64,000 nucleotides of DNA, taken from contig NZ_OCNH01000001.1 in the NCBI RefSeq assembly GCF_900230225.1, forward strand, positions 682,001 through 746,000, given 5' to 3'. Positions 19,029 through 52,666 of this stretch are shown here, piece by piece. The notes beneath the pieces were generated by a model. It saw only the letters and a program-made list of their open reading frames with translations, had not been told where the DNA came from and made no database searches. Position numbers and translations under genes: made by a program. Within the stretch, counting starts at the first letter, position 1; each line of letters begins with the position of its first letter. Origin of the DNA: Spirosoma fluviale. GTDB lineage: Bacteria; Bacteroidota; Bacteroidia; Cytophagales; Spirosomataceae.

Positions 19029-19448
19029 TTACTTCTGTGGTGTCAAGGCCGAAGTGGATGCACCTGGCGTAGCAGCGCCTGGAGCCGCCTGACTTGGAGC
19101 TGCCCCGTTGGCTGCGCTGGGTGCTGGGGTTGGCGCAGCGGCACCCGGTAAGGTCTGCGTTTGTGCCCGATCTACGTTCGCACTGTTGATGCCGGTTGCC
19201 TGATTGCGGTCAATCATGATGTACGATGCCATTGACAGCACCATAACGCCGATGCCAAGACCCCACGTAATCTGCTCAAGCAGATCGGTGGTTTTCTTCA
19301 CGCCCATGAGTTGGTTAGAGCCTAAGCCTCCAAATTCGCCGGCCAGTCCTCCGCCTTTTGAGTTCTGAATAAGTACAATAAGAATCAAAAGAACGGTGAG
19401 GATACAAATGATGACAATAGTTGCCGTTACCATGAATTCGGTTGTCAC
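19029..19448 (-). CDS. secG: Preprotein translocase subunit SecG
   Basis: 139 residues. Two membrane helices flank the SecG signature LIVLIQNSKGGGLAGEFGG at about 22-42 (first helix 9-28, second about 58-76 with GVMVLSMASYIMI). It is part of the inner-membrane SecYEG channel. After the second helix comes a ~55-residue Ala/Pro-rich tail (APTPAPSAANGAAPSQAAPGA), longer than in E. coli and low in complexity; similar tails are frequent in Bacteroidota SecG. A second Met at residue 6 is an alternative start. Confidence 0.92.
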   Translation of the reverse strand: MTTEFMVTATIVIICILTVLLILIVLIQNSKGGGLAGEFGGLGSNQLMGVKKTTDLLEQITWGLGIGVMVLSMASYIMIDRNQATGINSANVDRAQTQTLPGAAAPTPAPSAANGAAPSQAAPGAATPGASTSALTPQK

Positions 19449-19507
19449 CGGGTCGCCGGTGCGTTAAACAGTTAAGAGTAAATACAAACTAGGTGACAGC
19501 AGTTAAT

Positions 19508-51320: not shown

Positions 51321-52275
51321 TCAAGTTTCACTAGGTTGGCTATGGTCTTGCAATCGGTTATGTCGCTTGTAATTTTTAGGTTTCCAATGCTTTTTGAGCG
51401 GTTGATTGGTCAGATGAGCAACTGCCGGGGTTAAGAAATCACAACTCATATGAGGTTGCAAGTGGTTGTAGTTATGAATACTTCTGCCAACTGCCTTAAG
51501 TGCTTCATCAAAACTAGTAAAGACCCGGTTTAAGCGAAAATCCGTCTTTAAAATGCCATTGACTCGCTCAGCTATCGAATTCTCATAAGGATCACCATGC
51601 TGGGTCATACTGATGGATATGCCGGCACTTTTTAACTTTCGAACGTACTCAAAACTACAATACTGACTACCTCGATCTGACGGGGCCGCCCGCGCGGTGG
51701 TGGATGAGTTCTTTCCCCTTTTCCCAGTTATTTTTTAAGGCCATCTCCAGCGCTCGAAGGCTACCTTCAGCCGTTAAAAAAGGATGCAGGCAATAACCCA
51801 CAATTACCTTCGAGTACGCATCGGTGATGATGGACAAATAACCAAATCCAAGCCCAATACAGAGATACGTGATATCACACACCCACGCTTGACTGGGTGC
51901 ATCAATGACTCTGTCAATGAGCAAATTAGGGTATTTTTTTAAGCTGTGATTGGAATCAGTAGTCTTGGGAATCTGCCGTTTACGACGCAGAATCAGATTA
52001 TGAGCCTGCAGGATAGTATGTAATTTATCCCGCCCTACCTTAATCCCACTCTTGATAAAGGGTTCATTTAACAAGAGATGGAGTTTGCGAGTACCCAGCC
52101 CCGGAATATCGCGTCTAATGGCCATGACCATGTCTAAAACCAACATAGACTGGCTAACAGATCGTTGGGCATACTCGTCCCGCCGACAAAAGGCTTGTCG
52201 GCTCACCCCAAACAGTCGGCAAAGGCTTCCGACACTTACCTTTGCTATCTCGCTTTCGCGAAGCTTTAAGACCGT
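51321..52275 (-). pseudogene. IS3 transposase orfB (DDE integrase), interrupted
   Basis: Reading past a 16-bp insert, the frame gives LRESEIAKVSVGSLCRLFGVSRQAF..., a DDE domain with CDITYL (first Asp), HSDRGSQYCS (second Asp) and ENSIAERVNGILK (Glu), and the end KNYKRHNRLQDHSQPSET. The insert (51681-51696) sits exactly between the His of HH and the Ser of SDRG, so the frame is lost there and a stop follows. Without it the integrase core would be complete. Confidence 0.8.
51681..51696 (+). repeat. 16-bp GC-rich insert, copy 3 (inverted)
   Basis: CGGGGCCGCCCGCGCG on the plus strand, inserted in IS3 orfB between codons for His-His and Ser-Asp-Arg. Opposite orientation to copies 1 and 2; one C/T difference. 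Confidence 0.8.
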
Positions 52276-52282
52276 TTGTTAC

Positions 52283-52298
52283 CGCACGGGCGGCCCCG
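52283..52298 (-). repeat. 16-bp GC-rich insert, copy 2
   Basis: CGGGGCCGCCCGTGCG on the minus strand, in the 3' end of IS3 orfA after an AAAAAAGTCTG run. Identical to copy 1. Confidence 0.8.
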
Positions 52299-52327
52299 CA
52301 GACTTTTTTCGGATTGGTAGCTTTAGC

Positions 52328-52343
52328 CGCACGGGCGGCCCCG
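52328..52343 (-). repeat. 16-bp GC-rich insert, copy 1
   Basis: CGGGGCCGCCCGTGCG on the minus strand, in IS3 orfA after GAAAATGA. Removing it joins GAA AAT GA-G CTA AAG, restoring the expected ENELK reading. Confidence 0.85.
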
Positions 52344-52666
52344 TCATTTTCGGCCACTTCAATCATCGTGTTAAGCGCTAGGATCAACAAGTTTGCCTGT
52401 TGAAGCGCTTTCTCTAACTCCTCATTACGCTGCTTTAAGGCCAATACATCCTGCTTTTGGGTCTTGTTCATAGCAGGTAAAGTTATCAAGCCGGTCTGTA
52501 TTTTTTGTTGATACAAATTGACCCAATTGCGCAGGGTATAGCTGTCGTGGATGTCGAGGCCTTCCATTACCTGGCTTGGTGCTTCTCCGCCAAAGAGGAT
52601 ACGAAAGACGGCTGTTTCTTTCAATTGCTCACTGTACTGAAAGCGGGTGAGCAGGTCGCGGGTGTT

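Follow-up and report, generated by a model that had tools for sequence, protein, structure and literature searches.

A probable superfamily of mobile 16-bp hairpin elements in the Spirosomataceae

Three copies of a 16-bp GC-rich sequence interrupt the transposase genes of an IS3-type element in a Spirosoma genome. They very likely represent, when the claim is taken as a whole, a superfamily of non-coding mobile micro-elements found in the Spirosomataceae and mobilised in trans by some enzyme yet to be identified. The exact unit, its dispersal, its empty sites, a target rule, covariation and recent independent insertions are shown by the comparisons described below. The enzyme, the intermediate and the idea that one machinery is common to all families are inferred: no enzyme has been found and movement itself has not been observed as an event. 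The DNA at the centre of the analysis (the window) is a stretch of 64,000 nucleotides, positions 682001-746000 of contig C4 of genome G000 (Spirosoma).

The three 16-mers lie at positions 52328-52343 (copy 1) and 52283-52298 (copy 2) on the minus strand and 51681-51696 (copy 3) on the plus strand, the last being antisense to the transposase gene. Copies 1 and 2 read CGGG-GCCG-CCCG-TGCG, followed by GC and GT respectively, and copy 3 reads CGGG-GCCG-CCCG-CGCG followed by GT. Coordinates, sequence and orientation were all as recorded in a first-pass annotation, which had also noted the absence of a target duplication; both observations held in full, with no target bases duplicated or lost relative to homologous elements. 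The window contains no exact matches beyond these three, and six matches with up to three mismatches where 1.52 would be expected. The host of the inserts is a broken IS3-type element on the minus strand, made up of orfA and orfB pieces (51321-52660; outer ends not determined). Pfam searches of the pieces around the inserts gave rve_3 at 1.7e-13, above the curated cut-off, and rve at 5.6e-07, below it. Copy 2 lies at the orfA/orfB junction; an A6G heptamer (52303-52309, minus strand) stands four bases upstream of it and is present in all rows of our alignment except L286. Such heptamers are the usual -1 frameshift sites of IS3 elements, a role that can be assigned only by analogy in the present case. 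Copy 3 adjoins the codons for HSDRGSQYCS, which we take to be the second Asp motif of the DDE site. An Rfam scan of 4 kb around the inserts returned a single sub-threshold match (mir-344, E 0.82), located outside them. A possible fourth element, CCGG-GTCG-CCGG-TGCG (CCGGGTCGCCGGTGCG), is found on the plus strand at 19448-19463, followed by TT and upstream of secG (identified by Pfam at 1.5e-17); there is no empty-site evidence for it, and the same 16-mer was found as an insertion at another locus (L001).

The window element was aligned with nine relatives that are approximately 70% alike, and opposite each insert the relatives that lack it show a gap of precisely 16 bases. Site 1 is empty in eight of the nine, the exception (L286) having the variant CGGG-GGCG-CCCG-TGCG at the same point. 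Site 2 is empty in seven, the remaining two (L283 and L285) carrying TCGG-ACCG-CCGA-TGCG in the opposite orientation at the same point, and site 3 is empty in all eight relatives that cover it. It was the presence of different 16-mers at the same points in L286, L283 and L285 that first raised the suspicion of a class of elements rather than a single sequence.

Site 2 is occupied repeatedly: CGGG-type elements fill it in the window, in a copy from a second genome (L358, G007) and in a Runella rosea copy (L368), and the TCGG type does so in L283 and L285. Because other copies too have an insert at site 2, and probably at site 1, hot spots for insertion are likely. In a tree of the IS copies, L283 clusters (support 95/95) with L279 and L282, neither of which has an insert, and L285 falls outside, so that their shared insert requires either two gains or one gain plus losses; a single origin could not be ruled out by a group test on the tree. 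The Runella rosea copy, which is on a plasmid and is annotated as fragments, has a related 16-mer, oriented as in the window, at each of the three sites, with 3, 1 and 4 differences out of 16 bases from the window counterparts. The encoded pieces of the two elements are 40–52% identical in amino acid sequence over 148 and 52 aligned codons. Either recurrent target choice or old shared descent could account for the same-site inserts in the two elements.

The state of the window element bears on the age of its inserts. Its two orfB pieces extend for 194 and 106 codons without an in-frame stop, and their uncorrected non-synonymous difference from L305 and L280 is 0.13–0.16 per site, synonymous change being saturated. 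The open pieces and low non-synonymous difference suggest that the transposase gene was working until recently. The inserts are thus likely to be young relative to the divergence of the gene, unless they are tolerated, although this is an inference from sequence alone. Tolerance is made less plausible by a stop codon at 52279-52281, just past site 2 in the relatives' frame, where insert-free relatives have a histidine codon (as read from the alignment). This stop also means that the inserts are not the only damage to the window element.

Evidence that 16 bp is the unit comes from an all-against-all survey of 297 loci (1.2 Mb) for clean indels of 6–60 bases, which was blind to the 16-mer sequence. 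Exactly 16 bases were gained or lost in 83 of the 111 such indels, or at 68 of 84 indel sites when these were collapsed by context, making 16 bp the commonest indel length in this range in the loci compared. Most of these loci had been chosen because they carried the canonical 16-mer. When sites belonging to the canonical family (with up to one mismatch) were dropped, and with them this selection bias, 41 of the remaining 56 sites were still exactly 16 bp. The unit length is confirmed by perfect head-to-tail arrays of three and of five 16-mers in genome G189. Canonical units are also nested within a TCGG-type 16-mer in this genome (L218, L223), and a multi-copy repeat (L223, L236, L218, L237) was seen there with one, two or three tandem 16-mers inside the TCGG-type unit.

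The 41 non-canonical sites were placed in register using loop and tail bases only, allowing shifts of up to eight bases on both strands. At least five of the six anchor bases were matched by 34 of them, a standard reached by only 12 of 3000 random contexts from rve loci. All four stem pairs were present in 17 of the 34 (shuffle mean 2.4, maximum 8) and three pairs in four more; the other 13 had fewer than three, several of these appearing to be misregistered. At least 21 of the 41 therefore fit an architecture of a 4-bp stem, a loop with CG, the complementary stem and an NGCG tail. The other 20 do not fit in the anchor-only register, in part because that register is ambiguous. Across 25 distinct 16-mers, 96% of stem cells are paired and the covariation score is 0.445 versus 0.141, with none of 500 shuffles scoring as high and slid stems reaching at most 0.113. 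These 25 rows were hand-picked from the well-registered insertions, eight seemingly misregistered rows with four or five anchors being excluded; the selection retained five sequences in which a stem pair was mismatched or wobbled and three that departed from the usual loop or tail. Folding energy, considered as a further line of evidence for a hairpin, was rejected, as the energies of five 16-mers did not improve on those of shuffled sequences (z -0.38 to -1.28), and the hairpin claim consequently rests on covariation.

The canonical 16-mer is widely dispersed. Genome G000 has 15 exact copies and no match to a reversed-pattern control. Exact copies occur in 33 of 36 genomes from the same genus and, with these included, in 82 of 222 genomes from the same family, representing 18 of 36 genera; the control matched twice across the 222. 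Counts peaked at 120 (G189) and 78 (G205). A scan of named genomes found the 16-mer in at least Spirosoma, Larkinella, Runella, Emticicia, Rudanella, Dyadobacter and Lacihabitans. Many high-GC genomes from other phyla were also returned, though matches there are likely to arise by chance.

A more general pattern, HNGGNYCGCCNNNGCGG, captures the wider class. G000 has 76 matches compared to 10 for the control, and G007 has 183 compared to nine. Stems other than CGGG/CCCG are found in 60 of the 76 in G000, and both outer pairs are complementary in 39 of these 60 (shuffle mean 12.8, maximum 23). When the search was extended to 391 genomes of the order, the 18 same-genus rows totalled 1443 matches versus 160 in the control, and most Spirosoma genomes examined have dozens to a few hundred matches each; one of the 18 (G019) was not above control (15 versus 18). 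Order-wide rows other than these 18 were judged by eye without a tally. The family is patchy, with G147 (153 matches, 10 in control) and G205 (201 and 2) at one extreme and G037 (none in either) and G098 (6 and 19) at the other. Most other families are near control, as in family f11 (29 and 29 in G231, 53 and 51 in G273). Outside the family, counts above control were seen in G236 (f16; 76 and 29) and G264 (f17; 17 and 0), where related elements are possible. A different sequence, CCGGTCCGCCGCGGCGG, recurs exactly in several genomes (G450, G373 and G436, family f18) and is possibly another short repeat.

What lies around the elements was assessed from 40 pieces touching inserts in G000, G007 and G009, drawn from 66 copies; copies without long touching pieces were excluded. 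Five of the 15 exact copies in G000 are inside two IS3-type genes and one touches a piece of the PDDEXK_2 transposase family, whilst copies in G009 and G007 touch DDE_Tnp_1, IS110, IS1 and IS3-type pieces. Others are found with ordinary genes (AAA_3, PfkB, ribosomal L11, PdxJ), though whether inside or beside them was not resolved in every case. Several individual settings were also recorded. A canonical 16-mer between a tRNA-Thr gene and an EF-Tu gene is conserved in three species (L011/G000, L034/G004 and L035/G005), Pfam having been run on the neighbouring genes of the G000 copy only. Another interrupts a Y1 (IS200-like) transposase gene in G204 (L309, 428-443). Some palindromic repeats have a 16-mer at mirror positions in both arms (L009 at 1501 and 1583, L078, L099, L071, L013); in L061 only one arm carries it, the other looking like an empty site. 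In intergenic DNA, canonical 16-mers often come after an A+T-rich stretch ending in AATCCTG or AATCCCG (L041, L070, L087, L097 and others).

The insertions follow a simple target rule. At 159 non-redundant sites (from 198 inserts) the preceding base is a purine in 126, the next base G in 150 and the second T in 123, and little else stands out in the flanks. With no shared flank beyond purine|GT at these 159 sites, the possibility that the 16-mers are the ends of a longer IS or MITE was rejected. When the flanks of the 198 inserts were joined, an ungapped homologue was found for 61, five of these rows being self matches from tandem arrays, and the target site duplication that is the classical hallmark of transposons and MITEs is absent at the ungapped empty sites. 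The six right-hand bases are repeated immediately to the left at ten of the 159 sites, compared to 0.51 expected by shuffling, mostly within tandem units of 7–8 bases. Target duplication was considered for these ten and rejected in favour of pre-existing tandem units, because IS sites with empty relatives show no such repeat.

Recent movement is indicated by near-identical IS copies from two different genera. Over 1303 aligned bases, L221 (G189) differs from L249/L250 (G205) by 20 substitutions, and has no indels relative to it other than four 16-base inserts, of which each copy has two; both assemblies are fragmented (about 240 and 350 contigs, respectively). The suggestion in the first-pass annotation that the 16-mer is a very short mobile or recombined unit is thus supported by dispersal, empty sites, recent independent insertions and a covarying hairpin class. 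As to whether it is a known repeat or a new class of insert, which that annotation had left undecided, the 16-mer turns out to be one family within a wider covarying class. Two outcomes had been named there as refuting the idea. The first, absence of the 16-mer everywhere else, is clearly not the case given its spread through the genus and family. The second, that intact relatives carry the 16-mers at the same sites, is not met by any of the nine nearest relatives, none of which has the canonical 16-mer there, although the distant and fragmented Runella rosea plasmid copy, with related 16-mers at all three homologous sites, complicates this test.

In the mechanism that we propose, each element would comprise a 4-bp stem, with the inner GG/CC nearly fixed and the outer two pairs free to vary as long as they remain complementary, a 4-nt loop (NYCG in most cases), the complementary stem and an NGCG tail of 4 nt. 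An unidentified enzyme acting in trans would insert a copy between a purine and G (usually GT), neither duplicating nor removing target bases. The enzyme probably recognises the hairpin in single-stranded form, either as DNA or as an RNA intermediate, a route suggested by the covariation of the stem and the absence of target duplication. Within a transposase gene a 16-bp insertion would shift the frame and break the gene, whereas insertions into intergenic DNA, tandem heptamer-like repeats and palindromic repeats would be tolerated.

Four other explanations were considered. The first assigns the 16-mers to the REP or REPIN elements, with a RAYT (Y1 HUH) transposase moving them. In favour of this are the hairpin with an unpaired tetranucleotide, the lack of target duplication, the occurrence of inverted pairs and the report of CGTC-tagged REPs in Bacteroidetes (PMC3733652). 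Against it, the NGCG tail (CGCN on the other strand) is neither GTAG nor CGTC, and the 4-bp stems compare with 8–9 bp in the CGTC repeats (PMC3733652). Furthermore, among 30 Y1 loci scanned (out of 53 PF01797 matches in 12 genomes) only two have a CGGG-stem element: one, that in L309, falls within the Y1 gene and throws it out of frame, as elements do in other transposases, and the other (L334) is about 380 bases from the Y1 gene. Three further Y1 loci hold just looser hairpins. Finally, G006 has 38 exact copies with no PF01797 match at E 0.001, and G013 has 32 with one weak match. We consider this explanation unlikely.

Also improbable is a host-directed process that writes frameshifting 16-bp hairpins into transposase genes in order to silence IS elements. 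Points in its favour are the three inserts in 663 bp of the window, the four in 1.3 kb at 1.5% divergence in the L221 comparison, the repeated filling of some sites and the share of exact G000 copies (a third) in two IS3-type genes. In G007, moreover, an element lies within 900 bases of five of 11 weak rve matches but only one of 13 strong ones (two of two and none of one, respectively, in G000). This split, at 50 bits, was chosen afterwards and is partly circular, as the inserts themselves lower the score. Against the idea, the 33 rve matches checked in G009 (contig C1; 38 in total) are all more than 2.4 kb from any of its 17 exact copies, many copies are outside IS genes, and selection purging inserts from useful genes would yield the same pattern. 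A bolder form, in which dedicated machinery copies 16-base hairpins via single-stranded DNA or RNA with a preference for recurrent sites in transposase genes, and so constitutes a heritable anti-IS mutation system, is as a joint claim doubtful.

Less probable still is that the inserts are removed from RNA or bypassed in translation, leaving the genes active. Compatible with this are the two window pieces, which together run for 300 codons free of in-frame stops and differ little from relatives at non-synonymous positions, and the related inserts at the same three sites in the distant Runella copy. Weighing against it are the in-frame stop that adjoins site 2 in the window copy (again as read from the alignment), the annotation of the Runella copy as fragments, the insert-free state of several of the nearest relatives and the fact that recent insertion accounts equally well for the open pieces. 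A sequencing or assembly artefact such as an adapter or linker, which short, identical, GC-rich sequences might suggest, can be all but excluded and was rejected, as the 16-mer occurs in isolates, single-contig genomes and metagenome bins across many genera, orthologous copies are common to several species and the families covary.

The preferred reading, a superfamily of 16-bp elements mobilised in trans, can be set against systems already described. Searches of the literature by titles and abstract openings found no description of such elements in the Spirosomataceae, and we know of no mobile DNA smaller than these 16-base hairpins, which may be among the smallest mobile pieces of DNA known. 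Like REPs and REPINs, they have a hairpin with an unpaired tag, inverted pairs and some copies within genes (PMC3116915, PMC3733652; see also PMC2884548). They differ in length (16 bp versus 20–40 bp, with stems of just 4 bp), in having an NGCG tail rather than an unpaired GTAG or CGTC tag and in that no RAYT gene flanked by 16-mers was found in the 30 of 53 Y1 loci scanned; membership of the REP/RAYT group is not supported and appears unlikely. By analogy, the GC clusters and double-hairpin elements of fungal mitochondria are short GC-rich hairpins that likewise insert without a visible enzyme but are longer units in organelle DNA.

By analogy, the closest known kind are the small dispersed repeats (SDRs) of Nostoc and its relatives, reportedly described by Elhai et al. 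2008, a likeness of general features rather than of compared sequences. SDRs are 21–27 nt long, share a secondary structure with compensatory changes and are often found within tandem heptamers. Likenesses include tiny size, dispersal, lack of coding capacity, confinement to one clade and nested copies, families with a common secondary structure and compensatory changes (met here by the 0 of 500 shuffles) and embedding in tandem heptamers or small repeats (met here by the ten of 159 sites). The differences lie in the unit, which is 16 bp by indel survey and tandem arrays rather than 21–27 nt, in the host, Spirosomataceae of the Bacteroidota rather than cyanobacteria (which were outside our search), and in the target, purine|G(T) rather than HIP1 (SDR5 and HIP1 are treated in PMC4390886). 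To our knowledge, how elements too small to encode or span a transposon end are able to move has not been explained since the cyanobacterial SDRs were described. Ordinary annotation passes over inserts of this kind as frameshifts, and the closely related filled and empty sites identified here should make the hunt for the enzyme tractable, by gene association and by trap. The 16-mers would provide a second case after the cyanobacterial SDRs, in another phylum and with a smaller unit, a clear architecture and a simple target rule.
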